In this document: piece by piece, positions 1-15,024 of the stretch
How the letters are laid out: each line of letters starts with the position of its first letter
Numbering within the stretch: the first letter of the stretch is position 1
DNA from: Treponema sp.
GTDB taxonomy: Bacteria; Spirochaetota; Spirochaetia; Treponematales; Breznakiellaceae
DNA: 15,717 bases
Direction of reading: 5' to 3'
NCBI GenBank assembly: GCA_031288005.1
Contig: JAITSE010000074.1
Span: 1 to 15,717 of the forward strand
The notes under the pieces: model-generated
The model's database searches: none
Seen by the model: only the letters and a program-made list of their open reading frames with translations
Told to the model about the DNA's origin: nothing
Position numbers and translations under genes: made by a program

Positions 1-114
1 AGTGGGAGAGACTCTCACTTAAACCTGAGCGGCTCCCACTCGAGTGGGAGGGACTCCCACTTAAACCTGAGCGGCTCTTACTCGAGTGGGAGAGACTCTC
101 ACTTAATCCTAAGC
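1..114. repeat. 42-bp tandem repeat, about 2.7 copies, built from hairpins
   Basis: Units run 1-42, 43-84 and 85-114 (partial, cut by divergence). Each unit starts with a small hairpin, agtgggag-aga/gga-ctcycact, and the junction between units 1 and 2 (33-50) is a perfect 18-bp palindrome, ctcccactcgagtgggag. In units 1 and 3 the right arm reads ctctcact instead of ctcccact, which leaves a G-T (G-U in RNA) pair, so the fold is kept. The array touches the window edge and may continue to the left. There are no unique spacers, so it is not a CRISPR. Confidence 0.85.
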
Positions 115-163
115 CCCTCTGACATTTATCAGAGCCCCTCAGGAATACACGGGAATAAGTCAG

Positions 164-426
164 GGAGTTTTGCGAACCGCGGTTCTACGAACTGCGGAAA
201 CGCGGAAACTTCGGAAACAAGTTTCCGAAGTTTCCGATGGGTCGCTTTGACCCGCTAAGAAGTTCACAGCGGCAAACAATTCAAAAAAAACTCCAGGAGA
301 ACCATCGGTTCTACGAACCGCTAAGGGATCGGAGGCCCCACGGTTCTCAAGTGCGGGGAGTTTTGCGAACCGGCGGCTGCACTGCGGCCCGCAAGGGCCG
401 CGCTGTTCAAAAGTTCGCAAAACTCC
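164..426. repeat. Cluster of nested palindromes in a gene-free stretch
   Basis: This stretch holds no credible gene; the open frames across it are by-products of the palindromes. Seen directly: a perfect 12-bp palindrome at 174-185; a hairpin with 16-bp arms and a 2-nt loop at 203-236; cggttc-tac-gaaccg at 306-320; and a large nested structure whose outer arms are ggagttttgcgaac (357-370) and its reverse complement (413-426), with an inner gcggccc-gcaa-gggccgc hairpin at 384-401. The same ggagttttgcgaac word also occurs at 164-177. The outer arm at 413-426 ends immediately before the stop codon of the minus-strand gene that follows. Confidence 0.85.
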
Positions 427-1350
427 TTAGCAATCAGGCTTTGCCTGATTGCAGGGTTCCCAAACTCCTAAGCAAGCCGTGGAAGCGGAGCTTCCACGGC
501 TTGCAAGAAAATCCAGCAGCGGCGCTTTCCAGTTTCCGAGCTTTCCTTCGTCCAGGAACTGCCGGTACTTTTCAAAAATGTACGCCCGCAGGCTTTCGCT
601 TTTCCCTGGCGAGCCGGGGCGTGTAAAAAGGGCGGAGACAAAGCCGGCGGCTTCTTCCCCGGGAAAAAGGGCGGGATCAAAGCGGGACATGGCGTACAGG
701 CTTGCGGAAACGCAGTTTACACTGTGCTGCTTGACATACAGCACGGCTTCGGTGATATCCAGCGCGCCCTGGCGGAGTTCCTCAAGCTGGGCGGCAAAGC
801 GCTCCTCGTCTCCCATGGAACGGATGACAGCCCTGAACTTTGTATAGGTCCTGATGACAACCATGACGTGCAGGGAAGGGATGCACATAAGATGCGGGTC
901 CGCCGCGTGAATCAGTACAAATCTGAAGCTTCCGTAATACCGCGGGCGCCGGGTAGTGGACAGATTTTCCGTGTATATTTCCGCGGCAAAAGCGTAGAGC
1001 TGTCCCAGGGTGTCAATAAAATCCATGACGGGGGCTTCCGCGCGGCGCCCGTATTGACTGAGCAGAAAACCTGCCGCCCGGATCCAGAAGGCCACGAAAT
1101 CCAAGTATACGGCAACATACTTGGGGCTGAAGGGTATTTCCGCATCCAAAGGATGATCTACAGAGCTAACGGGGATACGCCCCGGCAAAAGCGCCGCCTT
1201 GTATTGCAGGAAAAAGAAATTGTACACCATTGATTTGGCCGCCCGCAGCGCAGCTTTTCTAAGCCGGGGCCGGCAGAGGACCCTGAAAACGGTATATGCC
1301 GGGGATTCTTTTGCCGCTATTGACGAAGGCGGGGCGGATTCTTTTTGCAT
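427..1350 (-). CDS. PAP2-like (AUR1/PAP2_3 type) integral membrane protein
   Basis: 307 residues. Seen: a basic N-terminus, then HPLDAEIPFSPKYVAVYL (about 66-83) running into hydrophobic segments at about 75-98 and 108-126; TTRRP at 132-136; IPSLHV at 157-162; and KQHSVNCVSA at 207-216. In PAP2_3 proteins the order is an (I)PF(x)P entry, R-P, P-S-x-H and then H-Y-x-x-D-V; the last motif lines up here as H-S-V-N-C-V. The catalytic-type histidines (161 and 209) are present, but the Asp that normally supports the second His is Cys. The family handles lipid phosphates in the membrane; an exact substrate cannot be inferred and activity may be altered or lost. The last 25 residues (about 283-307) are encoded by two hairpin repeats (472-504 and 430-452) plus the spacer between them, so the native end was probably near residue 282. 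The ATG at 1350 has only a weak purine-rich ribosome site. Confidence 0.7.
   Translation of the reverse strand: MQKESAPPSSIAAKESPAYTVFRVLCRPRLRKAALRAAKSMVYNFFFLQYKAALLPGRIPVSSVDHPLDAEIPFSPKYVAVYLDFVAFWIRAAGFLLSQYGRRAEAPVMDFIDTLGQLYAFAAEIYTENLSTTRRPRYYGSFRFVLIHAADPHLMCIPSLHVMVVIRTYTKFRAVIRSMGDEERFAAQLEELRQGALDITEAVLYVKQHSVNCVSASLYAMSRFDPALFPGEEAAGFVSALFTRPGSPGKSESLRAYIFEKYRQFLDEGKLGNWKAPLLDFLASRGSSASTACLGVWEPCNQAKPDC
430..504. repeat. Two hairpin repeats inside the 3' end of the PAP2-like gene
   Basis: Hairpin A (430-452) has 10-bp arms beginning gcaatcaggc, with loop ttt. Hairpin B (472-504) has perfect 15-bp arms, gcaagccgtggaagc, with loop gga. Read on the minus strand, hairpin B ends ..ttgc and is followed by ttaggagttt, and hairpin A ends ..ttgc and is followed by taaggagttt. 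The shared flank marks them as members of one family although the arms differ. A degenerate copy of hairpin B lies at 11578-11611. Confidence 0.85.
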
Positions 1351-1442
1351 AAAGCTCTCTCTTTCACGTTAATTCTTAAGAAACTAACCGGGTTTTACGA
1401 AAAACTCAAGCGCAAGCCGGCAGCTTTTACCCCGCAAATCCG

Positions 1443-1479
1443 TGCGAACCGTGGAACCCGCAGGGTTCCACGGTTCGCA
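1443..1479. repeat. Perfect hairpin, 17-bp arms, between divergent genes
   Basis: The arms are tgcgaaccgtggaaccc and its exact reverse complement, with a 3-nt loop, gca. It lies between the divergent PAP2-like gene and the methyltransferase gene, directly upstream of the methyltransferase promoter. It has no T-run on either side, so it does not look like an intrinsic terminator. It belongs with the other short-loop palindromes of the window. Confidence 0.85.
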
Positions 1480-1485
1480 GTCTAT

Positions 1486-1513
1486 TCGACAAAGCGGCGG
1501 AATATGTTATAAT
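1486..1513 (+). promoter_or_regulatory. Sigma70-type promoter, probably giving a leaderless mRNA
   Basis: The -35 box is TCGACA (1486-1491; consensus TTGACA), the spacer is 16 bp, and the -10 box is a perfect TATAAT (1508-1513). The -10 ends 7 nt before the ATG at 1521, so transcription should begin at or next to the A of that ATG. No Shine-Dalgarno sequence fits upstream. Confidence 0.7.
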
Positions 1514-1520
1514 CGCGCTT

Positions 1521-2807
1521 ATGGAATTAATGGCTGATGCGGCGGCCCTCTGCGCGGCGGGCGCTGAAAAAGCCGTCTCAAACGAACTGCGTAAGCTGGG
1601 GCTTTCCGTTGCGGGCAGCGCTTACGGCAGGGTCAGATTTAAGGCCGGATTATCCGGCCTCTACCGCGCTCTCATGGGGCTGAGGGCGGCGGACCGGGTT
1701 TTGCTGGAAACCGCCTGTTTTCCCGCCGTGGATTTCGACGCCCTCTTTGAGGGAACCCGGGAAGTCCCCTGGGAAGCCTACATTCCCCGGGGCATGGGGC
1801 TTAGAGTGTCCAAGGTCAGGACCAACCGCTCCCGGCTCATGGCGGAAACCAGCATCCAGGCGGTGGTTCACAAAGCTGCGGCCGGGCGTCTTTGCGAGCG
1901 CCTGCATCTTGCCAGGCTGCCGGAAGCGGAGAAACAAGCGGAACTGCGGGTTTATATCGAAAAGGACCGGGTTTCCCTGCTCTTGGATTTGTCAGGGCCT
2001 CCTCTCTTCAAGCGGGGCTACCGGCTTGAAGGCGGCGCGGCTCCGTTGAGGGAGAGCACTGCCGCGGCCTTGCTGCTTCTGGCGAATTGGCGGCGGAAAT
2101 ATCCCCTCTGGGATCCGCTCTGCGGCTCCGGAACCATTGCCATTGAAGCCGCCCTCTACGCATGGGACATGGCGCCGGGCCTGGGCCGGACTTTCGCTTT
2201 GCAGGATATGCTTCCCGCGGATCCGGCCCTTGAGCAAAGAATCCGGGAAGAGCTGCTGGCCAAGGTCAACTTAGACAGAACCATCCGTATCCACGGCAGC
2301 GATGAGGATAAGAGCGTCCTTGCCATTGCCAAGGCGAATCTCCTGCGGGCCTATGATTTGGCCCGGGGCAAAAGACTTTCCCCTGAAAAACGCCGCCGCC
2401 GGGAATCCGGCGCTGGGGGGCCGCTGCCCCTTGATTTAGGACCGCCGTTAGACGCTCCAGGACTGCCGGAACTTAGGGCTGCCGCTATGGAAGATTCTGC
2501 CGGATGGCCGCCTTGTGAAGAAAGACCCCTGAGTCCGCAAAATCCGGACGAGGAAAGCGGGAGGGACGAACCGGCTGGATTTATCATTACCAACCCGCCC
2601 TATGGCATACGCCTGGGGGACGCCGCTGGCGCGGAGGCTGTTTACAGGAAAATGGCCGGCTTGACCCGGCGTTTTCCCGGCTGGAAACTGGCCGTCATTA
2701 CAGGCCATCCAGGTTTCGAGTCCCATTTTGGCAGAAAAGCGGACTCCCGCAGAGAAATTACCAACGGCGCGATTCATTCATATATTTATCAGTACGAACA
2801 GCTTTAG
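1521..2807 (+). CDS. THUMP-domain class I SAM-dependent RNA N2-guanine methyltransferase (RlmL-type)
   Basis: 428 residues. The N-terminal third (about 1-155) fits the ferredoxin-like plus THUMP RNA-binding module of this family. The C-terminal Rossmann methyltransferase domain shows the SAM-binding motif DPLCGSGT (198-205), followed by IAIEAALYAWDMAPG, and the catalytic NPPYG motif (358-362). Family members transfer methyl groups to the N2 of guanine, in 23S rRNA for the RlmL type; the exact position modified here is inferred only. Residues about 283-350, between motifs III and IV, form a low-complexity Pro/Glu/Arg-rich insertion that is not typical of the fold. The ATG at 1521 sits 7 nt after the -10 box; an in-frame ATG at 1530 is the alternative start. 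The TetR-type gene follows after 10 nt and is probably cotranscribed. Confidence 0.88.
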   Translation: MELMADAAALCAAGAEKAVSNELRKLGLSVAGSAYGRVRFKAGLSGLYRALMGLRAADRVLLETACFPAVDFDALFEGTREVPWEAYIPRGMGLRVSKVRTNRSRLMAETSIQAVVHKAAAGRLCERLHLARLPEAEKQAELRVYIEKDRVSLLLDLSGPPLFKRGYRLEGGAAPLRESTAAALLLLANWRRKYPLWDPLCGSGTIAIEAALYAWDMAPGLGRTFALQDMLPADPALEQRIREELLAKVNLDRTIRIHGSDEDKSVLAIAKANLLRAYDLARGKRLSPEKRRRRESGAGGPLPLDLGPPLDAPGLPELRAAAMEDSAGWPPCEERPLSPQNPDEESGRDEPAGFIITNPPYGIRLGDAAGAEAVYRKMAGLTRRFPGWKLAVITGHPGFESHFGRKADSRREITNGAIHSYIYQYEQL

Positions 2808-2817
2808 GGAGCGGGGT

Positions 2818-3411
2818 ATGTCCATTGTGGTCGAGCATGAAAAACGGAGGGAAGAGATTTTGGAAAAAGCCCTGGATGTTTTCACGGATGAAGGGTACGA
2901 AAACACGACGCTGACAAAGATCGCCGAACGATGCGCTATTACAAGAACGACCTTATATCTCTATTTCAAAAACAAAAAAGATATTTTCAACTATTCGATA
3001 AAGCAGCTTTTGGAGAAAGTCGAGAAAGATATACTCTGTATCAAAGAAAACCGGGAACTGAATTATGTAGAAAAGCTCGCCAATGTTTTACTTGTTATTC
3101 TTGACCGGCTGGAAGAAAGCCGCCGCCTCCTGCCGGTAATTCTGGATTTTTTGCTCAACTTGTCTAAAAACGGCGTAAACCCGGACAACCGGGTCAGACG
3201 GAGGACCGTCCGGCTGCGCCGCATTCTGGCGGCCATGATGATTGAGGGAATCAAGGCCGGAGAAATTGCTCCCGTCAATGTACGGGCGGCGGACGATCTG
3301 CTGTATGGAACAATCGAGGCGGCCATCTTCCGCCTTGCGGTACTCAAACGCGTATCCATTGATGAACTAAGACAGGCCGCTGTCCTGGCGGCGGCCCTTA
3401 CGAGCCGCTAA
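2818..3411 (+). CDS. TetR/AcrR-family transcriptional regulator
   Basis: 197 residues, the usual size. The N-terminal DNA-binding region is clear: helix 1 around EILEKALDVFTDEGYENTTL, then the helix-turn-helix KIAERCAITRTTLYLYFKNK (about 33-52) followed by KDIF. The rest is an all-helical ligand/dimer domain without a recognisable subfamily signature, so the effector is unknown. The start is the ATG at 2818, preceded by ggga/gcgggg purines 10 nt after the upstream stop; a longer in-frame extension into the methyltransferase gene is possible but unnecessary. The nearest candidate target is its own operon; no clear operator was identified. Confidence 0.9.
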   Translation: MSIVVEHEKRREEILEKALDVFTDEGYENTTLTKIAERCAITRTTLYLYFKNKKDIFNYSIKQLLEKVEKDILCIKENRELNYVEKLANVLLVILDRLEESRRLLPVILDFLLNLSKNGVNPDNRVRRRTVRLRRILAAMMIEGIKAGEIAPVNVRAADDLLYGTIEAAIFRLAVLKRVSIDELRQAAVLAAALTSR

Positions 3412-3427
3412 ATCAAGCAAGCTGTGA

Positions 3428-3440
3428 GAGACCAGGTCTC
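3428..3440. repeat. Short palindrome gagacc-a-ggtctc
   Basis: Arms are 6 bp with a 1-nt loop, in the gap between the regulator gene and the MoxR operon. The same gagacc/ggtctc arms recur at 11674-11688 with loop gga and, lengthened by one base pair, at 13499-13515 with loop gaa. Confidence 0.6.
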
Positions 3441-3487
3441 AGGCTGCCGGCAAGCTTCGAGTTACAAGCCCGGAGGAAGGCTGCTAA

Positions 3488-3516
3488 TTGCTCTTTGCCG
3501 GAGGGCCTGCTACAAT
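3488..3516 (+). promoter_or_regulatory. Promoter of the moxR-bat operon, probably leaderless
   Basis: The -10 box is TACAAT (3511-3516) and lies exactly 7 nt before the ATG at 3524. At 17 bp upstream there is a poor -35 match, TTGCTC (3488-3493). No ribosome site precedes the ATG. The geometry is the same as at the methyltransferase gene, which supports both the start codon and a leaderless transcript. Confidence 0.6.
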
Positions 3517-3523
3517 ACCCGGT

Positions 3524-4576
3524 ATGGAAGCGAACCTTAACCCTGAGTCTCGTAGGGCGATTGAAGCGGCGGCGGAACTGCTGGGGCGTTTGCGAGAGGC
3601 CCTTGCCAGGCGGATCGTTGGGCAAACGGAGATGATAGACGGGCTTTTGATGGCCCTGACCGCCTGTGGACATATACTCCTTGAAGGAGTGCCGGGACTT
3701 GCAAAAACTCTGGCAGTGCGGAGCCTCGCGGAGATTACGGCTCTTCAGTTTAAGCGAATTCAATTCACTCCGGATCTTCTGCCGGCGGATATAACCGGGA
3801 CCCTGGTATGGGAGCAGAGTACGGGTAAATTCATGGTCCGCCGGGGGCCTGTTTTTGCCAATCTGCTTCTGGCGGATGAGATCAACCGCGCGCCCGCCAA
3901 GGTCCAGTCCGCGCTGCTTGAGGCAATGGAGGAGCGGCAGGTAACCATAGGGGATACAGCTTATCCTCTGCCTGATCCCTTCCTGGTTCTGGCGACCCAG
4001 AATCCCATTGAGCAGGAGGGGACTTATGCCTTGCCTGAAGCCCAGCTTGACCGCTTCCTCCTCAAACTCATCCTACGGTATCCCCTGCCTGACGAGGAAG
4101 TCCGCATTGTGGAGCAGCGTGAAGACGGAACGGAAGGCGAAGCTTTGCCGCTATTGACGCCCGCGCCGGACCCGGCCTTCAGAAAGGTTCTTGAGGCCGC
4201 AGTCCGGGCTGTGCGTGTGGACCGGCGTATTACCGAGTACCTTGTTTCACTGACCGCCGCAACCAGGCCGCCCGCGTCCAGGACTCAGACTTTTGCTTCT
4301 TCCCGCTCAGGGGAAGGGGAGCGCCGGCAGGACCGGGAGGGCCTTTACCGCTATATTGCTTTCGGAGCCTCTCCCCGCGCCTCCATCGCCCTCTACCGTT
4401 GCTGCCGTATCCGGGCGCTCTTTGAGGGCCGCGCGTTTGTAACTCCCGAAGACGTAAAGGCCGCTGCTTTTCCTGTCCTAAGGCACCGCATCGTTCTTTC
4501 CTATGAGGCTGAAGCGGACGGCCTGGATGCGGACGGAGTTATCTCCAGAATTCTGGCCCTGGTCCCGGCGCCCTGA
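3524..4576 (+). CDS. MoxR-family AAA+ ATPase
   Basis: 350 residues from the ATG at 3524. Seen: Walker A GVPGLAKT (55-62, the MoxR variant), Walker B LLLADE followed by INRAPAKVQSALLEAMEE (114-136), sensor 1 ATQNP (157-161) followed by IEQEGTYALPEAQLDRF, and the sensor 2 region GASPRAS (281-287). MoxR ATPases act as chaperone-like remodelling factors for von Willebrand factor A (VWA) proteins encoded beside them, as here. A Ser/Arg-rich segment at about 250-273 breaks the lid domain and looks like a lineage-specific loop. An upstream TTG at 3488 is in frame but would overlap the promoter, so the ATG is preferred. The gene opens the eight-gene operon. Confidence 0.93.
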   Translation: MEANLNPESRRAIEAAAELLGRLREALARRIVGQTEMIDGLLMALTACGHILLEGVPGLAKTLAVRSLAEITALQFKRIQFTPDLLPADITGTLVWEQSTGKFMVRRGPVFANLLLADEINRAPAKVQSALLEAMEERQVTIGDTAYPLPDPFLVLATQNPIEQEGTYALPEAQLDRFLLKLILRYPLPDEEVRIVEQREDGTEGEALPLLTPAPDPAFRKVLEAAVRAVRVDRRITEYLVSLTAATRPPASRTQTFASSRSGEGERRQDREGLYRYIAFGASPRASIALYRCCRIRALFEGRAFVTPEDVKAAAFPVLRHRIVLSYEAEADGLDADGVISRILALVPAP

Positions 4577-4593
4577 ACTATTTCAACTTCAAT

Positions 4594-5511
4594 ATGGAAC
4601 GGCGGGAACTTCTACAAAAGATAAGCTCTTTCCACCTCGCTTCCAAGGATTTAGCGGAGGACCTTCTGTCCGGGGAATTCGCTTCGGTTTTCCGGGGCCG
4701 GGGGATGGAATTCGACGCGGTCAGGCAGTACGAGGCGGGGGACGACATTCGTTCCATAGACCGGAATGTAAGCGCCCGGTTCGGCAGACCCTTTGTAAAA
4801 CTTTACCGGGAGGAAAGGGAACTCACGGCGTTTATAGTGCTGGACTGTTCCGTTTCCATGCGTTCCGGCGGGAATTTTCCGGGCCGGGGAAAAAGCGTCC
4901 TGACAAGGTATGAACAAGGAGTTTTGGCTGCGGCGCTTATCGCTCTTTCCGCGGAAAGGACGGGGCAGCTGGTTGGAGCGCTGTTTTTTGACCGGGACAT
5001 CGCCAGGGTCTACAGTCCGCGGAAGGGGAAGTCCCATGCGCTGGCAGTGATAAGCGCCGCGTTGGAACTGGAAAACCCTGAACGGGGGAGCGGTTTGGGC
5101 GCGGCCTTGTCCGGGGCCCGGCGGCTCCTCAAACGCCGCAGTTTGGTGGCGGTAATTTCCGACTTCCTCTGTGTGGACTGGGAACGGAAACTTGGAGATC
5201 TCAGCGCCAGGCATGATGTCATTGCCCTCAGAATAAGCGATCCTCTGGACAACGAAATGCCTCGTCTTGGCCTGGCCGCTCTAGAAGACGGGGAGACCGC
5301 CTATGGTTTCCATGCCCTCACTTCCTCCATGTCTTTCCGCGGCGCCTGGTCCGAATGGCATGAAGATCGCGCCCGGCTCTGGCAGTCTGTCTGCCGCCGC
5401 GCCGGCGCGTCCATGCTTGAACTAAGTACTGCCGCCGATGCCCCAGGCGTTTTGGCTCATTTCTTCCGGGGAAAAATGCGCCGGAACTGCCGGTTCAGGA
5501 AGCGCCGATGA
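4594..5511 (+). CDS. DUF58 domain protein (VWA-like partner of MoxR)
   Basis: 305 residues. The DUF58 signature is clear: RGRGMEFDAVRQYEAGDDIR (34-53) followed by SIDRN and AR. The usual tryptophan of the IDW motif is Arg here (residue 57). A metal-ion-dependent adhesion site follows at DCSVS (84-88), with VISDF (187-191) as the later Asp-containing strand. There is no signal peptide or membrane segment, so it should be cytoplasmic. DUF58 proteins are paired with MoxR ATPases and are thought to be remodelled by them; the biochemical role is unknown. It begins 17 nt after the MoxR stop without an obvious Shine-Dalgarno site and ends in an ATGA overlap with the next gene. The C-terminus is very basic. 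Confidence 0.9.
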   Translation: MERRELLQKISSFHLASKDLAEDLLSGEFASVFRGRGMEFDAVRQYEAGDDIRSIDRNVSARFGRPFVKLYREERELTAFIVLDCSVSMRSGGNFPGRGKSVLTRYEQGVLAAALIALSAERTGQLVGALFFDRDIARVYSPRKGKSHALAVISAALELENPERGSGLGAALSGARRLLKRRSLVAVISDFLCVDWERKLGDLSARHDVIALRISDPLDNEMPRLGLAALEDGETAYGFHALTSSMSFRGAWSEWHEDRARLWQSVCRRAGASMLELSTAADAPGVLAHFFRGKMRRNCRFRKRR

Positions 5512-6449
5512 AGTCCGCGTTTCTTCTTTTTTGCTTGATTGCCTTGGCCGTCTACTGCGATGCCCAAGATGACTATAGCGCCTACCTTATTCCCCAGACA
5601 GTTTTTGTGGGCGATCAGGCCCGGCTGGCGATTCCCCTTGATGCCGCTTTTGCCGGGGCCGTGGGAAGAGCGATACTGGACAATCCTGAAGAACTTCCAT
5701 CCACGCCCGGCTTGATCGTTTCCAAGATAGAGTTAGAAAACCGGGGGGGGAGTTGGCAGCTTCTCATCGATTTTACAGCATTCATACCCGGCGTGATAGA
5801 ACTGCCTCCCATAAAAATTGCTTCCCTTACCTTTACCGGCCTGACAGTAACTGTGACGTCCATACTGGAGACAGAAGGTAATGTCTCTGCGCTTTCTGAG
5901 CCGGCTCCGCCCCTGACGGTTCCGGGCACCTTGGGAATGATCTATGGGGTAATCCTTGGAATCGCCGCTTCTATTGCCGGCTTTGCTCTGCTGTTCCTGA
6001 AAGGGGGGCCTATGTTTAGGAACTGGCGTGAAGAGTTCAGACGGCGCCGGCTGATCTGGTCCATGGGCCGGGTTTTACGGCGGCTTAGGAATTTCATAAG
6101 CCAGGGCGATTCCGGGGAGGCCTCTAAGGTTCTGGACAGGCTTTCAACGGATTTCAGAGGTTTTCTGGGATCTTTCACCGGAATGAACTGCCTGGCCATG
6201 ACCGGAGAGGAATTTCTTTTCCTTCCTTCACTTACCGCTGAGCCTTCGGGCCCTTTCCTGCGGGATTTTTTCCGGCGCTGCGACATCCTGCGGTTCAGCG
6301 GAACGGCGGTAGAAAGCCAGGATGCATCGGAAATGCTGGATAAGGCGGCGGATTTTATCGGAAGAATAGAGAAACAAAAAGGGACGGCTGATGCCGGGGA
6401 ACCGGGGCTTTTTCAGGGCATTACAAAACGGGAGGAGAAGGCGGTATGA
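5508..6449 (+). CDS. BatD-like membrane protein with periplasmic beta domain
   Basis: 313 residues. Seen: an N-terminal signal sequence (about 1-19, ending near CDAQ), a short beta-rich domain of about 120 residues, one transmembrane segment (about 142-165), then a basic cytoplasmic stretch (RNWREEFRRRR) and a helical C-terminal region. This layout, and the place between DUF58 and BatA, match the small BatD-like or poorly named protein found here in spirochaete bat operons. No catalytic motif is visible. It is probably an anchor or scaffold for the VWA proteins; that is inference from position. Start and stop both lie in ATGA overlaps with the neighbouring genes, which indicates translational coupling. 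Confidence 0.7.
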   Translation: MKSAFLLFCLIALAVYCDAQDDYSAYLIPQTVFVGDQARLAIPLDAAFAGAVGRAILDNPEELPSTPGLIVSKIELENRGGSWQLLIDFTAFIPGVIELPPIKIASLTFTGLTVTVTSILETEGNVSALSEPAPPLTVPGTLGMIYGVILGIAASIAGFALLFLKGGPMFRNWREEFRRRRLIWSMGRVLRRLRNFISQGDSGEASKVLDRLSTDFRGFLGSFTGMNCLAMTGEEFLFLPSLTAEPSGPFLRDFFRRCDILRFSGTAVESQDASEMLDKAADFIGRIEKQKGTADAGEPGLFQGITKREEKAV

Positions 6450-7447
6450 GCATAGGCTTTGACCGGCCCTTTCTTGCCGCCGCGGGCGCGGGGATCATCC
6501 TGCTGTTTTGCGGTCTTTCCCGCCTCCTCCGGGACGCATTGACTTTGGAGCTTCCTCTGGGGCCGCCCGGCGGGGTTCCCTTCAAACCGGCTCTAAATTT
6601 TACCTTCCTTGTCAGACTCCTCCGCATTCCTGAATTGTGCGGCGCCTCCCTTCTTTTTATTGCGGCGGCGGGGCCTAAATTCATATCCACTGAGATCGTC
6701 TGGCTCAGCCGGGGAGCGGATGTGCTTTTCGTGATGGACATAAGTCCCAGCATGGCTGGTCTGGACATGGACGGGCGCAGCCGTTTTGACGCGGCCCGGG
6801 AACTAGTTATGAATTTTGCCGGAAGCCGGCCCGCGGATGCCGTAGGGCTTGTAGCAGTGGGGAACGAAGCGGGCCTTCTTCTGCCGCCCACGGTGGACAG
6901 AGCGCCTCTTTATTCCCGCCTGGACAGCCTCGGGATAGGGGAATTGGGGGACGGCACAGCCTTAGGGCTGGGACTTGCCATCGCTGCCCTGCATATACGG
7001 ACCTCCAGAGCCCCTCGCCGGGCGGTGGTGCTTATCACCGATGGAGAGAACAACGCCGGCGCGGTGCATCCTGAAACAGCGGCTGAAGTCCTGCGGGATT
7101 CAGGGGCTTCCCTCTGGGTGATAGGCGTTGGGGCCGCCGGCGAGGTTCCCATTGATTATGTTGATCCTATTCTCAAAGTCCGAAGGACCGGCTCTTTTGA
7201 CTCTCGTTTTGATCCGGAGAAACTCAACGCTATTGCCATGAAAGGCGGGGGAACCTTCATAGCTGCCGCATCAGGGAGAGCTCTTTCCGAAGCCTTTGCC
7301 AGCCTGTCGGAGGCCGAGATGACAGTAGTGCGCTCCGGGACTATGAACAGGCCTCAGGATATTCAGAGGCCGGTGATCCTTGCGGCTTTGACCATGATCC
7401 TCCTCGCCCGGTTTATCCGGCGCTGGCTTATGGGGGCTTTTCTTTGA
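6446..7447 (+). CDS. batA: BatA, VWA-domain membrane protein
   Basis: 333 residues. Hydrophobic segments lie at about 8-22, 55-75 and 308-325, leaving the VWA domain between the second and third. The metal-ion site is complete: DISPS (98-102), the Thr in GDGTALG (171) and the Asp of LITDGENN (199). Bat proteins were named for Bacteroides aerotolerance; in spirochaetes they have been linked to oxidative stress, but direct evidence varies. A good ribosome site, ggaggag (6431-6437), precedes the ATG. It overlaps the gene before by ATGA and the next by TTGA. The neighbours strongly support the naming. Confidence 0.92.
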   Translation: MSIGFDRPFLAAAGAGIILLFCGLSRLLRDALTLELPLGPPGGVPFKPALNFTFLVRLLRIPELCGASLLFIAAAGPKFISTEIVWLSRGADVLFVMDISPSMAGLDMDGRSRFDAARELVMNFAGSRPADAVGLVAVGNEAGLLLPPTVDRAPLYSRLDSLGIGELGDGTALGLGLAIAALHIRTSRAPRRAVVLITDGENNAGAVHPETAAEVLRDSGASLWVIGVGAAGEVPIDYVDPILKVRRTGSFDSRFDPEKLNAIAMKGGGTFIAAASGRALSEAFASLSEAEMTVVRSGTMNRPQDIQRPVILAALTMILLARFIRRWLMGAFL

Positions 7448-8457
7448 GTTTTGATTATCCCGCTTTCCTTTTTTGCATCGGCCTTCTCGTTCCCCTGACC
7501 TTTCTTTCAGTCCTTCATTATAGCCTGCGCCGGGATGTTTTGACTTTTTTTCTTCCTTCGCCCGGTTCACCTTCCGGACGGGGAAGGGAATTCCGGTTCC
7601 GCTACCTTTTGTCCGTCTCCTTTTTTCTCTTGTTTTTCGCCTGCCTTGCCATAGCCTTGGCAGGGCCTCGTTGGGGGACCCGGCTTGTCCCGGAATTTCG
7701 CCAAGGGGCGGATGTGGTCCTGGTTATGGATCTTTCCCGGAGCATGGATGTCCGGGACGGCGGAGAAAGAGGACGTTCCCGTCTGGAGCAGGCGGCGGTC
7801 ATAGCCGGAGAACTGCCGGCGCTTTCCAGGGGGACCCGTTTTGCCGTTGTGATAGGAAAAGGGACCGGGGTTCTTGCCGTCCCCTTAACTGACGATGCCG
7901 AAGCGGTTAGCGCCTTTCTGGAAGGGCTTTCAACTTCCCTTGTTACCGGAAGGGGAACCAATCTGGAATCCCTTGTTACCGCGGCTGCCAGGGCTTTTCA
8001 GGACAGTTTTCCTACCCGCCGGCATATCATCCTGTTTTCTGACGGAGAGGCCCATCAGGGATCATTCTTTCAGGGAATTGAGAACGCCCTTGCCAGAAAT
8101 ATATCAATCACGGCGGTGGGACTGGGCAGCGAAGCTGGCGGAGTGGTCCCTTCCGCTTCCGGGAGGGATGGCGGCCCCGAAGCGGATCTTGTGAGCTTTC
8201 TCCGCCGGGATGCCCTGCGAGACGCCGCGGAAAGGACAGGCGGCATATACCTTGATGGAACAAATGAGCGCGCCGCAGCCTTTCTTGCAGGTCATATAAT
8301 CGCAGCCTCCCCGGAATCAGGCGGCGCCGGAGATCCGGGGCCGGCGGACTTCAGACGAGAGCGGGTTTCCCGTTCCTACATTTTTATTCTCACCGCTTTG
8401 GCTGCTTTTGGGCTGTCCTGGGCCTGCGGCAAGAAACGGAAACGCCGTGAAACGTAA
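7444..8457 (+). CDS. batB: BatB, VWA-domain membrane protein
   Basis: 337 residues, with a TTG start inside the TTGA overlap with batA. Transmembrane segments lie at about 8-25, 54-73 and 311-327. The VWA metal-ion site reads DLSRS (96-100), followed by Thr in GRGTNLE (172) and Asp in LFSDGEAHQG (200), all intact. It is the paralogue of the preceding BatA and in the family probably pairs with it at the inner membrane, in contact with BatC and BatD. The C-terminus is a basic tail (KKRKRRET) overlapping the start of batC. The non-ATG start and the overlap suggest that its output is tied to batA translation. Confidence 0.92.
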   Translation: MSFDYPAFLFCIGLLVPLTFLSVLHYSLRRDVLTFFLPSPGSPSGRGREFRFRYLLSVSFFLLFFACLAIALAGPRWGTRLVPEFRQGADVVLVMDLSRSMDVRDGGERGRSRLEQAAVIAGELPALSRGTRFAVVIGKGTGVLAVPLTDDAEAVSAFLEGLSTSLVTGRGTNLESLVTAAARAFQDSFPTRRHIILFSDGEAHQGSFFQGIENALARNISITAVGLGSEAGGVVPSASGRDGGPEADLVSFLRRDALRDAAERTGGIYLDGTNERAAAFLAGHIIAASPESGGAGDPGPADFRRERVSRSYIFILTALAAFGLSWACGKKRKRRET

Positions 8458-9142
8458 AGAAGGCGTCCGGCAGGATGGGCGCACAAAAAGCAATCCCGGC
8501 ACGGCCCAAAAGCGGCGGTATCAGATAAATCTATTGGCAAGACTTAAAAATTTTTATGCGTTTATGCTGGGCGCTCTGTTTCTTGCCGCATCCTGTTCCG
8601 GCGCATCCGGCAAGTTCAAAATCATTGAAGGGGGATTCTTCAATCAACAGGGAATGTACGCTGAAGCTATAGCCGCGTACCGTTCTTCCCTGACGTTTCC
8701 AGGAGCCGCCCCTTATGGAGAATACGGACTTGGAGTTATGTACCTTACCCTGGATGAAGGAGATGCGGCTCTTGAGCGTTTTACGGCGGCGGAAAAAGCC
8801 CTGGCTGTTCTGGGCGGCGACGAACACCGGGAACTGCTCTACCGGATTCACTACAACCGCGGGGTGATCCGGTTTCACAACGGTGATTTTACGGAAGCCG
8901 CGGGAGAATTTCGCAAAGCCCTGGAAGCCGACAGCCGCCGCATCGAAGCAAAGCGGAACCTGGAGCTTAGCCTCCTTTCTGTGAATCCCCGGGGAGGCGC
9001 CGCGCCGGCCCCTCTTTCCGGTGGAAGCAGCGCCGGGGAAAGAAATGAAGTTTTCTTTGATTATCTGCGTCAAAAAGAGCAGGATAGATGGAGAAGCCGG
9101 GAATGGATCGAAGATGCTCCCTTATCGGGGCCGGATTATTAG
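8447..9142 (+). CDS. batC: BatC-like tetratricopeptide-repeat lipoprotein
   Basis: About 231 residues from a GTG at 8447; a TTG at 8534 is the main alternative and would give a compact lipoprotein signal (ARLKNFYAFMLGALFLAASC). The segment FLAASC is a relaxed, spirochaete-like lipobox. After it come at least two tetratricopeptide units: FNQQGMYAEAIAAYRSSLTF and, later, YNRGVIRFHNGDFTEAAGEF. The tail is a charged linker ending KEQDRWRSREWIE..GPDY, a type of ending I recall from spirochaete BatC proteins. BatC is thought to be periplasmic and to bridge the VWA proteins. The start is uncertain: no strong ribosome site is seen for either choice. It overlaps batB by 11 nt and batD by up to 55 nt. 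Confidence 0.85.
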   Translation: MKRKEGVRQDGRTKSNPGTAQKRRYQINLLARLKNFYAFMLGALFLAASCSGASGKFKIIEGGFFNQQGMYAEAIAAYRSSLTFPGAAPYGEYGLGVMYLTLDEGDAALERFTAAEKALAVLGGDEHRELLYRIHYNRGVIRFHNGDFTEAAGEFRKALEADSRRIEAKRNLELSLLSVNPRGGAAPAPLSGGSSAGERNEVFFDYLRQKEQDRWRSREWIEDAPLSGPDY

Positions 9143-10644
9143 GATTTTTAGCAAACCTATCCCTTGTTCTCTGCCCGGTTTTTTCAGAGGAAGCCGGCTA
9201 TTTCCCGGACCCTGACTACTACCTGGACTACGGCCTTTCGCCTGAAACCGGTCTTTCCGGCGATGCCGCCATGAACATGAAAGTGCTTCTGGAAGTCTCC
9301 CCGGAGATCCCGGAAGTTCACGCCGAATGGCTGATTCGTATTCTTGTGGATTATCCAAACCCGCAGGATGTTTCCATCCAGATTCCAGAACTCCCCCCTT
9401 CCCTTGTTCTGGACCGGCTTCGCACAGCGGTCCGCTTTGTAAGTTCTGACGAAGAGACCGGCCCGGCGGCTGAGGAAAAGTGGACTGTTGTAGACCTCTT
9501 TTTTATCCCGGTTCTGAACGGACCGCTTTCCCTTGCCCCTTTTGAGGTCCGGGTTCCAGGAGGCTTTGGCCGCAGCCTGCCGGTATCCGCCACTGTCCGG
9601 GGAGGAGAAGATGAAGCCGGTTCAATTATGGCGGCCTGGGAGTCTGCGCCCGCATTTCTCGTGGCCGGGCATAGCGCGGAAACAGGGCTCCGTCTCATTA
9701 CGAGGCTGATAGAAAATCCGCAGTCCCTTTCATACCGGCCGGAAGCGCCGTCGAACGCCATAATTGAGCCTGCCGGCGCAGAAAAGACCGGGCCGGAAGA
9801 GTTTGTCCTTCGCTTCAGGATTATTCCGCTGGAAGGAAATTCCATAATCATTCCCCCGGGCATTTTGAAATATGAGGAGTTCTCTGCCGCCGTTCCAGGC
9901 CGCGAATTCGCTGTATTGCCTTCGGCGGGCCGCCAGGCGGATTCCGCCGGAGCCTCCGCGCAAGGGCCGGTTTCTTCCCGGGATCAGGGCGCCGGTGAAG
10001 ATCCCGCCGGGACCCGGCTGTCTTCAGCGCCCGCGTTCCCCGATGCCGCCGCCGTTTTTCCGCCTTTTCGCAAGGGATATGAACAGGCCCTGAAGGAAGG
10101 CCGGCTTTATTGGGAACAGGGCCTGTACGCCGAAGCTCTTGCCGCGCTCAGATTAAATGAACGGGAGCTTGCGGCGGGTCCGGCTCTGGCGCTCCCGCGG
10201 CGGGCCGCGGAAAAGGCCCTGGGCATAGAGTTCACCGAAGATGAAAGATGGCGGCCCAGGTATCTTCTTCCTGGATTGTCCGCGGTTATTTCATTTATTT
10301 TTTTTGCCCTTCTCATAAAAGGCAGGCGGAAAATTTTTACAGTAACTTTAGGTTCTATCCGGGGTTATACGTTTATTGCGGCGCTTTTTTGCATCACCCT
10401 GGGAACATCTGTCTATGGATTTTTCAGCGGATCGGTCCGGCAAGCGAAGCCGGATAAAAGCCGTACCGGAATACTTAGAGAGGCGGGCCTTTTCAGGGTA
10501 CCGGAAAAGGAAAGCCTTATGGATCCGGTTCTCCAGGAAGGGGAACCTGTTCGAATCCGTTCTTTAACGGACGCCTGGGTTTATGTTGAATCTTTTGAAG
10601 GCAAAGCAGGCTGGGTTCCCTTGGAGCGGATTATTTTTTATTGA
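9088..10644 (+). CDS. batD: BatD-like protein with C-terminal SH3-type domain
   Basis: 518 residues from the ATG at 9088; the ATG at 9103 (513 residues) has a better-placed GGAG and gives a clean signal peptide, MDRRCSLIGAGLLGF. The periplasmic part (about 35-270) is beta-rich, as in BatD (oxygen tolerance) proteins. Residues about 280-325 are a Pro/Ala-rich linker, 329-375 a helical tetratricopeptide-like hairpin (KEGRLYWEQGLYAEALAAL), and 393-410 and 428-446 transmembrane helices. The last 60 residues (..EGEPVRIRSLTDAWVYVE.., GKAGWVPLERI) look like a bacterial SH3 domain. By topology this SH3-like end returns to the periplasmic side and could bind peptidoglycan or a partner. The function within the complex is inferred. 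Confidence 0.82.
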   Translation: MEKPGMDRRCSLIGAGLLGFLANLSLVLCPVFSEEAGYFPDPDYYLDYGLSPETGLSGDAAMNMKVLLEVSPEIPEVHAEWLIRILVDYPNPQDVSIQIPELPPSLVLDRLRTAVRFVSSDEETGPAAEEKWTVVDLFFIPVLNGPLSLAPFEVRVPGGFGRSLPVSATVRGGEDEAGSIMAAWESAPAFLVAGHSAETGLRLITRLIENPQSLSYRPEAPSNAIIEPAGAEKTGPEEFVLRFRIIPLEGNSIIIPPGILKYEEFSAAVPGREFAVLPSAGRQADSAGASAQGPVSSRDQGAGEDPAGTRLSSAPAFPDAAAVFPPFRKGYEQALKEGRLYWEQGLYAEALAALRLNERELAAGPALALPRRAAEKALGIEFTEDERWRPRYLLPGLSAVISFIFFALLIKGRRKIFTVTLGSIRGYTFIAALFCITLGTSVYGFFSGSVRQAKPDKSRTGILREAGLFRVPEKESLMDPVLQEGEPVRIRSLTDAWVYVESFEGKAGWVPLERIIFY

Positions 10645-10654
10645 GGCGGCAGTT

Positions 10655-11143
10655 ATGAATTTTGGAGATATTTTGGATGCCTGGGATAAGCAAGCAGTCC
10701 AAACCGGGAAAAAGCGGGGAACGCCGGACGCATTAGGCGGCTCTGACATAGGCAATTCTATGGAGGAGTGGCTTAGGACAAACGGCGTTTACGACAAAGA
10801 CGCTGAAAGCATAAAAGAAGACGAAAGATATTCCACTGAACGGCGCCGCAGGCTTAGGGCAAAGAATCCCGATGCGGCTCTTGATCTTCATGGGCTTACC
10901 AGCGGAGAAGCTTGGGCGGCTCTGGAAAATTTTTTTGAGGAGAGCCGCCTGAAGGAACTCGAAAAGGTCCTGCTCATACACGGCAAAGGAAACCATTCGG
11001 CCGGGGAAGCGGTATTAAAACGGATAGTTCTGCAATTTATAGAAAAATGTCCCTACGCGGGTGAAAGCGGCCGGCCCTCTGTGGAATTCGGCGGGAGCGG
11101 CGCTACATGGGTATTATTGAAAGCTAACGCTCGCGGTAAATGA
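10655..11143 (+). CDS. Smr-domain protein
   Basis: 162 residues from the ATG at 10655, with a gaggcgg ribosome site at 10643-10649. A charged N-terminal region (1-70, RRRRLRAK near its end) is followed by an Smr domain: LDLHGL (76-81), the LLIHGKG core (106-112), and [11 protein letters not shown] (146-156). The small MutS-related (Smr) domain has nuclease or nucleic-acid-binding activity in studied proteins, and stand-alone bacterial versions have been tied to rescue of collided ribosomes. The gene starts 10 nt after batD and is therefore the last gene of the operon. Its 3' end overlaps the convergent infA by 20 bp. Confidence 0.9.
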
Positions 11144-11348
11144 TGCGGCCTCTGCTTAAATCGTAGGGCGAGAGGGCAACTTTCACCCGGTCGCCTGGAA
11201 CAATACGTATATAATGCTTACGCATTTTACCGGAAAGATGAGCTAGAATGAGGTGACCATTTTGATTATCAAGCTCAACTCTGAACATGGTGTTTGGAAG
11301 GGCTTCCCGGACAACCCCTTCAACTTCAATAGCTTCTTCTTTTGCCAC
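11124..11348 (-). CDS. infA: Translation initiation factor IF-1
   Basis: 74 residues, full length for IF-1. The S1/OB fold is clear: [17 protein letters not shown], then [19 protein letters not shown] and [19 protein letters not shown], ending YRER. It binds the ribosomal A site during initiation. The start codon is GTG (11346-11348), with gagga 6 nt upstream (plus-strand 11355-11359) and a strong promoter behind it. It stands alone here rather than in a ribosomal protein operon. No intrinsic terminator is seen between it and the convergent Smr gene. Confidence 0.97.
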
Positions 11349-11365
11349 TCTGATTCCTCTTTGTT

Positions 11366-11394
11366 ATACTACTTATTCACGCCGGCTTTGTCAA
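11366..11394 (-). promoter_or_regulatory. Sigma70-type promoter of infA
   Basis: On the minus strand there is a perfect -35 TTGACA (11394-11389), a 17-bp spacer, and a -10 TAGTAT (11371-11366). A leader of roughly 10 nt then carries gagga and leads to the GTG start. Unlike the two leaderless-type promoters of the window, this one serves a gene with a normal ribosome site. Confidence 0.75.
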
Positions 11395-11446
11395 TTCCCC
11401 TGCAAACCGCGGAAGACCGCTGAAACCGAAAATATTTGCCTTTTCT

Positions 11447-11510
11447 GAAAAAACAAGATTTTTGAAAAACAAGTTTTTCTTGAAAAAATCGTGTTTTTCT
11501 TAAAAAAAAT
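11447..11510. repeat. Alternating A-tract/T-tract repeats, likely curved DNA
   Basis: Three imperfect 17-20 bp units of the form g-aaaaa(a)-caag-ttttt begin at 11447, 11464 and 11482, and a run of eight A follows at 11502-11509. The A and T runs are centred at about 11450, 11461, 11467, 11476, 11486, 11496 and 11506, most of them 9-11 bp apart, close to the helical repeat. Such phasing usually bends DNA. It lies between the infA promoter and the poly-G lipoprotein gene and could act as an upstream promoter element for either; a clear promoter for the lipoprotein gene was not found. Confidence 0.6.
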
Positions 11511-11547
11511 TTGCAATATTCTGAAATATCGTTTAATCTTATAGTAA

Positions 11548-11611
11548 CCCCCTATTTCTGAGGGGGAAATTTAAACAGCAAACCGTGGAAGCGGAGCTTC
11601 CTTAGGCTTGC
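11548..11611. repeat. Two hairpins upstream of the lipoprotein gene
   Basis: The first, 11548-11566, is ccccct-atttctg-aggggg, without a T-run. The second, 11578-11611, is a degenerate copy of the hairpin at 472-504: it keeps the inner ggaagc-gga-gcttcc core and the outer gcaa/ttgc ends but is broken between them. It ends two nucleotides before the ribosome site of the lipoprotein gene, so in the mRNA it could affect translation start. Confidence 0.65.
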
Positions 11612-11624
11612 AAAGGAAAATTGT

Positions 11625-12969
11625 ATGAGTGTTTTTGAAAGGAACCTACCGGTTCCAAAAAAGGCGCTGACCCGAGACCGGAGGTCTCAGTTCGACGTCT
11701 TCACGGCGCTCGCTGCCGTCGCAGTGTTCGCCGCGTGTTCCTACCCCTCCGCGCCCGGCGCGGAAACCGCCGGCCCCGCGGCCCTGTTCCAGGACGCGGG
11801 CGGCCTTGTCCGTGTAACCGTGCCGCTCCCGACCGGGGGGGGGGGGGGGGTCAGACCCGGAAGCCGTAGGTTCCCTAACCTCCATTTCACGCTCCATTCT
11901 AAACAAGAACATCCGCTTTGACGCGGACTTCTATGAAGTCGTATTCAGAACCATAAAAAAATCCACCGAGTCCACCCTTCCAACCCAAGTTAAACAATAC
12001 TACCGTGGCGCCGGAACAAAGAACGACGGCTACATCAACGTGGCGGTCTATCCCGGCTACGCCTATGACGTGCTGCTCCTTGCGGGATCCACGGACTATC
12101 AATGCAAAACCCTCCTGGCCGCGGGCTACAGCGAGGGCAGCTACACATTAGGCGCCGAAATAAACCTCATCACCCCGGGCGAAAACAACGTAATCGGCAT
12201 TACAATCAACGCCTTCCCCCTCCTGTGGGACACAAGCAAAAACAACGCGATGTCGGCGGACAATGATTTTGCGTTTATAACATACGATGCATACACCAGC
12301 AGCACAGGCAGTTTAGGAAACGTAATCGCTTCAACAATAAACAACCGGAATATTCATATTTCCCCCACAACCACGTCAACGATTGCTGATGCAAGTTCCC
12401 CCATTGCTGACGCTGCGGTCATTGCCGTAACATTCAGAGTGGCGAAGCTGGCGGCTCTCCTTGGGGCGGAGAAAACCGGCACGGAATTGGGCGCAATAAG
12501 CCTGGTTCCAAAGATTACGCTGAATCCCCTGTCAGGCGGCTCAAACGAGAAACTGACTTTTGACGCGGTAAGCTTCATTTCCAGAGCAGGAACCAACGCC
12601 ACAACCTCACTCGACATTTACCCTGCCACATCCACTAACCGGTATTATATAATTTCCGGCCACTCAAATGCGACTAATGCGCAAATCACCTTTGTAAGCG
12701 ACACCAGCGTCAACAAACTCCCCAAGAACAACAAAGACGGGCTTCTCGTGTTTGAGCTTGAGTACCGGGCCTTCGGCACAACGGTCAATGAAGGCACAAC
12801 CTTGTGGACCATCCGCAACGGCCTCAACGACAAAGAAGACACCGCCGCGGCGGCATCGAGCGACACCACCGGAGACACCGACGGCGGCGCTTTCCGCGTC
12901 AAGTTCGGCGCGGGCGCTCCCGCGGACCTGATAAACGCGCAGACGCCGCACAAAGCAAGTCCGTTCTAA
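11625..12969 (+). pseudogene. Putative phase-variable surface lipoprotein, out of frame at a G16 tract
   Basis: The ATG at 11625 has aaagga 7 nt upstream. The first frame has a signal sequence ending VFAACS (Cys 38, relaxed lipobox), then VRVTVPLPT and five glycines from a run of 16 G, after which it reads through in the wrong frame and stops at 11921. The frame starting right after the G run (tca at 11851) is open to the stop at 12969 and reads SDPEAVGSLTSISRSILNKN..., so both parts belong together. Losing one G or gaining two would join them into 447 or 448 residues. The second part is rich in Thr, Ser, Ala and Asn, with beta-type character and no known domain. It is probably an exported outer-surface protein. 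As sequenced it is off; whether this is reversible phase variation, decay, or a tract-length sequencing error cannot be told from one sequence. Confidence 0.75.
11835..11850 (+). repeat. Homopolymeric G tract, 16 G
   Basis: Uninterrupted run of 16 G inside the coding region of the lipoprotein gene, encoding glycine. Runs of this length are prone to slipped-strand change of length. The reading frame downstream fits a tract length divisible by three. Confidence 0.95.
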
Positions 12970-12990
12970 AAACGCCAGGGTCTGAGATCG

Positions 12991-13125
12991 TGGGACCTAA
13001 GGTTCGCAAATCAGTGGAACCTTAGGTCCCAGAGGTCTGCGGACAGTAGTCTGCGGACAGTAGTCCGTCTGGAGTTTTGCGGACTTTGTATGATATAAAG
13101 AACTTTTCTAATTCCGCGAAACTCC
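12991..13125. repeat. Hairpins and a 14-bp direct repeat between lipoprotein gene and DUF4469 fragment
   Basis: An inverted repeat with 15-bp perfect arms (tgggacctaaggttc) spans 12991-13031 with an 11-nt loop. Next is a direct repeat, gtctgcggacagta, twice at 13035-13048 and 13049-13062. Then ggagttttgcgga (13071-13083) faces its near-complement (13113-13125, one mismatch) around an AT-rich 29-nt loop. The last arms are variants of the ggagttttgcgaac word of the left cluster. No gene is visible between 12970 and 13137. Confidence 0.8.
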
Positions 13126-13137
13126 AAGCAATCTTGA

Positions 13138-13377
13138 GACCGCTTTAGCGGGCTTTACATTGTGAACGCCTCAGGCGGTGCAGGCGGCACAGACGGCCTG
13201 GCCCAGAAGCTTATGGGGAACTTCGTAGAAAACCACCCCGCCCGCGTCTCCGCCCAGCTTCCCGCCCTGACTGCCGGGAGCTACCGCGTCAGGGTTATTA
13301 CCCAGCACTCAGGCGGCGGCGTGTTCTTAAAGGAACCCAGGCAAATAGACTACGCGGTTGACCTGACTGTCTCCTAG
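13138..13377 (+). pseudogene. C-terminal fragment resembling a DUF4469 (Ig-like) domain
   Basis: Open from 13138, after a TGA at 13135-13137, to the stop at 13375-13377: about 79 residues, DRFSGLYIVNASGG.. to ..VFLKEPRQIDYAVDLTVS. The pattern GLYIVN, then NHPARVSAQLPALTAGSYRV, VITQHSGGG and LKEPR matches how DUF4469 domains end as I recall them (GIYFV, NxPSE, VPAL.AG.YRL, T.FSGG..LK.PR). These domains usually follow an N-terminal DNA-binding-like HU domain, which is missing here. A GTG at 13162 is the only plausible start and lacks a ribosome site. The open frame begins at a small hairpin (13140-13151), so the gene probably lost its 5' part where repeats were inserted or recombined. Confidence 0.6.
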
Positions 13378-13391
13378 GCCCAGGGGTCCGG

Positions 13392-13638
13392 GGTAATTTG
13401 GGACAGTAGGTCCCAAATTACCTAAGGAGTTTTACTTTCCACCGGGGTGGAAAGTAAAACTCCACGGTTCCAACCAGCAACCGGAGGACAGACCACGGGA
13501 GACCCGAAGGGTCTCAAACCAGCCACTAAAATAAGTGGAACCCTACGGGTTCCTTGGGAGTTTTGAGACCAGCAAAGAACTGAAAACCGGTCTCAACTCC
13601 AGGGTCTCAAAACTTCTAAGCAACCGCGTAGCGGTTGC
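13392..13638. repeat. Dense hairpin cluster, no gene between 13378 and 13615
   Basis: Successive palindromes: 13392-13422 (13-bp arms ggtaatttgggac, loop agtag); 13426-13463 (perfect 18-bp arms starting ggagttttactttcc, 2-nt loop); 13499-13515 (gagaccc-gaa-gggtctc); 13523-13538 (ccact/agtgg); 13537-13553 (ggaaccc-tac-gggttcc); 13557-13600 (ggagttttgagacc against ggtctcaactcc, two bases different in length); 13620-13638 (gcaaccgc-gta-gcggttgc). The last one supplies the final seven codons of the minus-strand nucleotidyltransferase-HEPN gene. None has the T-run of a standard terminator. Confidence 0.85.
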
Positions 13639-14335: not shown

Positions 14336-14340
14336 AACAT

Positions 14341-14913: not shown

Positions 14914-15024
14914 ATCAGGCCATGCGGGGTCAAGCTCAATCCGCGGCTTCCAGTTGTCCGCCGCCTACAGCGCGCCGTCAATGACTTTCTGATAGGCTTC
15001 AATTTCCGCCGCAATTTCCCGCTG
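14444..15024 (-). repeat. Direct-repeat pair bordering the two HsdS recognition domains
   Basis: An identical 17-bp block, gccgcaatttcccgctg, occurs at 14444-14460 and 15008-15024, and caagaggcgg at 14466-14475 and 15030-15039. They encode the conserved QREIAA/PPL helix at the end of each recognition domain. Homologous recombination between such blocks can delete or exchange a domain. Confidence 0.7.

Follow-up and report, generated by a model that had tools for sequence, protein, structure and literature searches.

How can a family of short hairpins keep its fold while the sequences of its arms change from copy to copy? The question is raised by a contig of Treponema sp. (GenBank assembly GCA_031288005.1, contig JAITSE010000074.1), whose whole 15,717 nucleotides (nt) we analysed and call the window. 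A preliminary description had listed short-loop palindromes in it, with arms that differ between copies but match within each, as a candidate for an undescribed system. We found that the window elements are a divergent, dispersed palindromic repeat resembling TD-2 RNA, ordinary in kind and partly in Rfam already; the unusual point is that stems and loops vary freely while the fold persists. On balance we lean towards reading them as components of a palindromic repeat dispersed in Treponema-type spirochaetes and overlapping TD-2, whose arms are rewritten by occasional template switching and whose decayed folds are lost. The repeat is probably non-autonomous.

Hairpins of the window form a repeated unit

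All ten palindromes of the earlier list proved real and stand where they had been placed: nine were recovered by an exact scan for arms of at least 7 base pairs (bp) and loops of 0–6 nt, and that at 306–320, whose 6-bp arms lie under the scan's 7-bp cut, is visible directly. Measured against 30 dinucleotide shuffles, the window holds 5 palindromes with arms of at least 12 bp where 0 are expected, 6 perfect ones with arms of at least 10 bp and loops of at most 6 nt (shuffle mean 0.07), 11 with arms of at least 8 bp (2.0 expected) and 19 with arms of at least 7 bp (7.5 expected, highest shuffle 15); the long hairpins are far above chance, and the 7-bp hairpins on their own are not. Rather than running through 430–13638, the range given earlier, the ten sit in three patches (203–504, 1443–1479 and 13392–13638). 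These are chiefly non-coding, with 430–504 overlapping the tail of a predicted open reading frame (ORF) at 427–1350 and 13620–13638 that of an ORF at 13616–14353. DNA folding of the patches adds a stem at 12991–13031 and long-interior stems at 164–294, 357–426 and 13071–13125. Neither an Rfam search at gathering scores nor a tRNA scan gave a match in the window, and plasmid records gave none to positions 1–520.

Most window hairpins are parts of a repeated unit, in which a first hairpin (H1) with a GGAGTTT...AAACTCC base is followed by a 3-nt linker (TAA or TTA) and a second hairpin (H2). The H1 arm GGAGTTTTGCGAAC occurs 5 times in the window when up to 2 mismatches are allowed, against 0.17 expected. 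Counting both strands, 3 of the 12 AAACTCC sites lead, across a linker of exactly 3 nt (TTA, TAA, TTA), into a perfect H2 of 10, 15 and 13 bp; 1 of the 4 AAACTTC sites is followed by TAA and an 8-bp H2, and 1 more meets a hairpin at linker 0 inside 203–236. The baseline is 0.57% of all window positions having such a hairpin within 5 nt, and on these counts the window holds four units: 357–452, half an H1 plus 472–504, 13463–13392 (reversed) and 13557–13638. Two H1-like stems (164–294 and 13071–13125) have no H2. The two minus-strand ORFs named above terminate within hairpin units, their C-terminal tails corresponding to H2 and their stops to linkers. The earlier statement that arms differ while the dyad is kept holds in general, with exceptions in the G·T mismatches of a 42-bp tandem array at the contig edge and in hairpin 180–195, one wobble short of its partner 306–321.

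In its general form the unit consists of H1 (GGAGTTT-x-loop-x′-AAACTCC), a linker of 2–4 nt and H2; in some cases a third hairpin (H3) comes before it. We observed this anatomy both in the window and in its relatives; the spread, the covarying arms, the hypervariable loops and the inversion of loops were seen in the relatives only.

The unit recurs across related genomes

Of 195 family genomes, 169 contain the H1 pattern GGAGTTTN{4,34}AAACTCC, with at most 203 copies in one genome (G056) and 0–7 for the reversed control; among 392 genomes of the wider phylum, some of them from the family, counts outside the family were 0–6 against 0–19 for the control. The exact window 14-mer GGAGTTTTGCGAAC was rejected as a family marker, being present in 1 of the 195 genomes. 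Twenty 20-kb stretches of related genomes contained 32 palindromes with arms of at least 10 bp and loops of at most 6 nt (11 of them from one G114 stretch), against 2.2 in shuffles. An H2-like hairpin lies beside 49 of 79 H1s in relatives (1–4 of 79 at control offsets), and in 73 units chosen for perfect arms, which show anatomy and not covariation, linkers are 2–4 nt long, most commonly GA (25), CAA (13), AT (11) and TAA (6), with outer arms and linkers conserved across genomes. By a crude ORF caller, H1s avoid genes, 15 of 40 lying within ORFs although ORF coverage is 85%, and those with ORFs on both sides (n = 30) have no bias towards any arrangement of the flanking genes' orientations (8, 8, 7 and 7).

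The RlmL-like protein encoded at 1521–2807 of the window has its nearest relatives (71–75% identical) in three Treponema sp. assemblies, which to judge from their isolate codes are probably of termite-gut origin. Next to the RlmL-like gene none of the three has a hairpin of the H1/H2 kind: two lack any palindrome of at least 8 bp with a loop of up to 6 nt, and the third (L001) has an 8-bp and a 12-bp palindrome of other sequence. In IMG/VR, three stretches contain GGAGTTTTGCGAACCG, with no palindrome of at least 9 bp and none of at least 8 bp within 400 bases of the match.

Overlap with TD-2 RNA

The idea of an undescribed system is not supported, as the unit overlaps an Rfam family: units in relatives overlap TD-2 RNA (RF03162, clan CL00124), with L216 scoring 46.4 bits against a gathering score of 48.7. 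A TD-2 search under strict filters, with at most 19 candidates scored per genome, gave matches with E of at most 0.001 in 85 of the 195 family genomes (55 of these exceeding the cut-off) and in none of 14 control genomes; among the window's relatives it matched G001 and G003 and not G002. In the window itself the covariance model matched no TD RNA, even with E allowed to reach 1, and no AYGGAY apex, as taken from the TD-2 consensus, occurs on a stem of at least 4 bp. The likeness lies in the order of parts: TD-2 has three hairpins, of which the middle one (GAGUUU...AAACUC) leads through a short linker to the next, and the window shows the same succession of GAGTTT/AAACTC H1 stem, short linker and H2 at the 3 of 12 AAACTCC and 1 of 4 AAACTTC sites described above. 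The window units differ in having larger H1 interiors, H2 arms that start with GCAA or GG, and no AYGGAY apex. TD-2 is filed in Rfam as a small RNA (sRNA), whereas dispersion and loop inversion come from the present analysis. The source paper for TD-2 reportedly dates from 2017; a literature search for the phrases ‘TD-2 RNA’, ‘TD-1 RNA’ and ‘TD-2 motif’ returned no occurrence in the papers searched.

As separate observations, the AYGGAY apex of the TD-2 consensus recalls the TwoAYGGAY motif tabulated in PMC2864571, and in G159:C20 (L283, L298) 7 TD-2 matches are listed within 7 kb, among ORFs that by appearance resemble phage tail genes. Flavo-1 RNA (RF01705) is a distinct module, which in G087 and G116 lies close to TD-2-like units or adjoins them directly; nothing in the window matches it. 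A Flavo-1-like 16-mer occurs in 37 IMG/VR stretches, and in two of these, both viral contigs (L256, L268), the flanking module is visible by eye.

Arms change and stay paired

Watson-Crick pairing holds for 260 of the 296 inner pairs in a set of 85 H1s picked solely by their outer 7 bp; one H1 of the set is a window copy and three are terminators. In 25 distinct 25-mers, pair 8 is formed in 22 copies, pair 9 in 23 and pair 10 in 24, where independent arms would give 12.2, 9.2 and 11.7, and pair 11 shows no excess (21 against 21.1 expected). In 23 distinct 23-mers, pair 8 is formed in 21 and pair 9 in 20 (11.3 and 10.7 expected), and pair 10 in 19 (15.9 expected); the six 27-mers, with pair 10 paired in 3, are too few to add much. 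In relatives the inner pairs thus change identity yet remain complementary, bearing out the earlier argument that copying of one element followed by mutation is insufficient. In 19 units of G087, retained if the outer 7 bp of H1 matched and H3 lay at most 4 mismatches from the consensus arms, broken pairs number 3 of 171 in H3 and 0 of 190 in H1. Hairpin pairs with compensatory changes are also found in the double-hairpin elements of fungal mitochondria, an organelle system.

Loops occur in both orientations

In the same 19 units of G087, 46% of bases per site are non-consensus in the loops, 8.4% in the flank and 0.9% in the H3 arms. Of the H1 loop types found beside one flank in G073, 8 of 10 also occur reverse-complemented, which 1 of 5000 random sets reaches, and in G087 the figure is 6 of 8 types (11 of 5000 random sets). 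As plain reverse or complement, none of the H1 loop types of G073 (0 of 7) or G087 occurs. In G073 the test covered 43 of 84 counted rows, those with a single flank type, loops of 3 nt and perfect arms; in G087 it covered 33 of 42, and in G116 18 of 86, among 24 listed. Of the 33 G087 rows, 3 carry other linkers, and adding 3 omitted rows with perfect 3-nt loops keeps the result at 6 of 8. GNA triloops form stable DNA mini-hairpins, and GNA/TNC loops account for 20 of 43 (G073), 25 of 33 (G087) and 12 of 18 (G116) H1 loops; as a general loop rule the GNA triloop was rejected, with 1 of 19 H3 loops. The flipped loops include non-GNA types (ACC/GGT, TAT/ATA).

In inverted repeats of yeast genes, template switching between the arms (quasi-palindrome correction) homogenises arms and inverts spacers where arms exceed 9 bp and spacers are 2–5 bp, as described in PMC8604942. 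Spacer inversion has its counterpart here in the H1 loops of G073 and G087, and the covariation across copies may reflect arm homogenisation; the yeast process was shown in genes and not in a dispersed bacterial repeat family. H1 loops in both orientations beside the same flank are, by this analogy, the published signature of template switching. We envisage that an enzyme would spread the units, and that the near-perfect, closely spaced arms, mostly 8–18 bp, would allow replication occasionally to switch template inside a unit. Such a switch would copy one arm onto the other, so that stems change yet stay paired, and would flip the loop; copies with a decayed fold would be lost or stop spreading.

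Weighing the explanations

Several observations weigh against spread and template switching as a full account. In ten hand-picked comparisons of tandem copies (eight from four loci of relatives and two from the window's 42-bp array; one of the ten skips a unit), 7 arm changes are paired and 8 one-sided; the set omits three tandem pairs of G116 in which the H2 arms are of unequal length between copies and perfect in both. Paired changes come from L173, L156 and L216, whereas array L294 of G088 and the 42-bp array of the window supply the one-sided ones. These one-sided changes in two arrays mean that a change in one arm is not always matched in the other and that rewriting is not constant, so selection on the fold probably contributes. 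One L294 unit looks chimeric, and exchange between tandem copies seems to occur. Template switching, as proposed earlier, is thus favored by H1 loop inversion in G073 and G087 and limited by the one-sided arm changes. The inversion excess is weak for G116 H1 loops (282 of 5000 random sets) and absent from G087 H3 loops (1921 of 5000).

No orthologous site with a unit in both species was found, so that the paired changes are between copies inside one genome. At locus L157, an 89% alignment to G088 ends at base 1381, beside a cluster at about 1382–1671, and the absence of the cluster from that site in G088 may reflect rearrangement rather than an empty site, since the gene beyond the cluster differs. 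Counts of H1 in the window's nearest relatives G001, G002 and G003 are 2, 0 and 14. Near relatives can differ widely in GGAGTTT forms (G073 99, G071 10 and G072 7; G070 57 and G069 8). G087 and G088 (91 against 13) have similar numbers of TD-2 matches, 17 and 18, among the 19 candidates scored in each, and G088 carries TGAGTTT forms, so that this pair gives no evidence of recent spread; form rather than number may differ. No enzyme that moves the units was found.

We consider it somewhat improbable that selection on the fold alone accounts for the family, with a folded RNA or single-stranded DNA substrate, compensatory mutation in the arms and free drift of the loops. Selection of this kind would explain the arms, and it is favored by the cataloguing of TD-2 as an sRNA, by the conserved outer arms and linkers, and by the mismatched intermediates in tandem arrays. 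It would not explain the flipped H1 loops, which in G073 and G087 stand beside the same flank in both orientations above random sets, non-GNA types included. The indifference of H1s to flanking gene orientation is likewise unlike a cis-acting transcript element.

It is quite unlikely that the units are elements of the repetitive extragenic palindromic (REP) type, moved as single-stranded DNA by a Y1 (HUH) transposase, the REP-associated tyrosine transposase (RAYT). According to PMC3733652, a text search of which gave no hit for Treponema, REP elements (GTAG- and CGTC-tagged) are short dispersed palindromes whose stems and loops vary between families, which resembles the units, and Y1_Tnp is present in 119 of the 195 family genomes. 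However, it was not found in 5 of 14 hairpin-rich drafts (G058, G081, G116, G151 and G194, with 41–136 H1s each, drafts of uncertain completeness), none of the 10 best Y1 loci has an H1 hairpin up to 1.5 kb to either side, and the constant bases (GGAG) lie within the stem instead of forming an unpaired tag, with no linked transposase found. Among the 16 window ORFs scanned there is no transposase family above cut-off (one sub-threshold HTH_Tnp_1_2 match falls in a TetR protein) and no integrase family such as integron attC sites would call for, so the REP-associated transposase suggested earlier has not been borne out.

That the hairpins are ordinary transcription terminators or chance structures is scarcely credible: three H1-like matches (one each in G014, G015 and G016) are terminators, with a run of T on one strand, and the window's 7-bp hairpins are within chance, but its long hairpins, read from the sequence, have no T run beside them, far exceed chance and are arranged as H1, linker and H2.

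Features of the window, neighbouring genes and other loci

Table 1. Hairpins, linkers and related elements of the window
Positions	Strand	Feature	Remark
1..126	.	Three 42-bp tandem units at the contig edge, each a short-loop palindrome	G·T stem mismatch in 2 of 3 copies
164..294	+	H1-like stem GGAGTTTT...AAAACTCC (164–171, 287–294) around hairpins 180–195 and 203–236	No adjoining H2
203..236	.	Perfect 16-bp hairpin, loop AA	Exact scan
306..320	.	Hairpin, 6-bp arms, loop TAC	Seen directly
357..426	+	H1, arms GGAGTTTTGCGAAC / GTTCGCAAAACTCC	42-nt interior holding its own 7-bp hairpin (384–401)
427..429	+	Linker TTA	
430..452	+	H2 GCAATCAGGC-TTT-GCCTGATTGC, 10-bp arms	
462..471	+	H1 right half (AAACTCC) plus linker TAA	
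472..504	+	H2, 15-bp arms, loop GGA	With 430–452 encodes the tail of minus-strand ORF 427–1350
1443..1479	.	Solitary 17-bp hairpin between two genes, loop GCA	Exact scan
12991..13031	.	15-bp hairpin TGGGACCTAAGGTTC / GAACCTTAGGTCCCA, 11-nt loop	DNA folding; absent from the earlier list
13071..13125	+	H1-like stem GGAGTTTTGCGGAC / TTCCGCGAAACTCC	No clear H2
13392..13422	-	H2 of reverse-oriented unit, 13-bp arms, loop 5	
13423..13425	-	Linker of reverse-oriented unit (minus strand: TTA)	
13426..13463	-	H1 of reverse-oriented unit: GGAGTTTTACTTTCCACC, 18 bp, loop 2	
13499..13515	.	7-bp hairpin, loop GAA	Exact scan
13537..13553	.	7-bp hairpin, loop TAC	Exact scan
13557..13616	+	Degenerate H1 GGAGTTTTGAGACC	Right arm twice (13589–13600, 13603–13616)
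13617..13619	+	Linker TAA	
13620..13638	+	H2 GCAACCGC-GTA-GCGGTTGC, 8-bp arms	Minus strand encodes the final residues of ORF 13616–14353

The ORF at 13616–14353 joins nucleotidyltransferase and HEPN domains, which usually belong to the two genes of a toxin-antitoxin pair, and at 14341–15621 two neighbouring ORFs each carry a type I restriction specificity domain (Methylase_S). Between 3488 and 9142 lie in a row a MoxR-type ATPase, a DUF58 protein, an ORF with no assignment, two VWA proteins and a TPR protein, resembling an aerotolerance (Bat) operon. A protein-like frame with no good start stands between two hairpin patches at 13150–13377 and could be the detached end of gene 12040–12969. Elsewhere, G114 (L052, L065–L079) carries 160 copies of an AT-rich palindrome, GTATAAATATTCAT, nested in the copies inspected in a stem like GGAGTTTG...CAAACTCC; its loops ATTT and AAAT occur 4 and 4 times by orientation, and GTTT 8 times in a single orientation.

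What the repeat may mean

It is possible, though doubtful, that this is a bacterial hairpin family that evolves mainly by template switching, inheriting its fold and not its sequence, and that the TD-2 ‘small RNA’ is truly such a DNA element. If so, template switching in the DNA of a repeat family could produce covariation, which is the usual proof that an RNA is functional, and TD-2 and similar candidate RNAs would need the DNA explanation to be excluded first. Each genome, holding dozens to hundreds of short natural palindromes with known flanks, would then offer a direct record of bacterial template switching.

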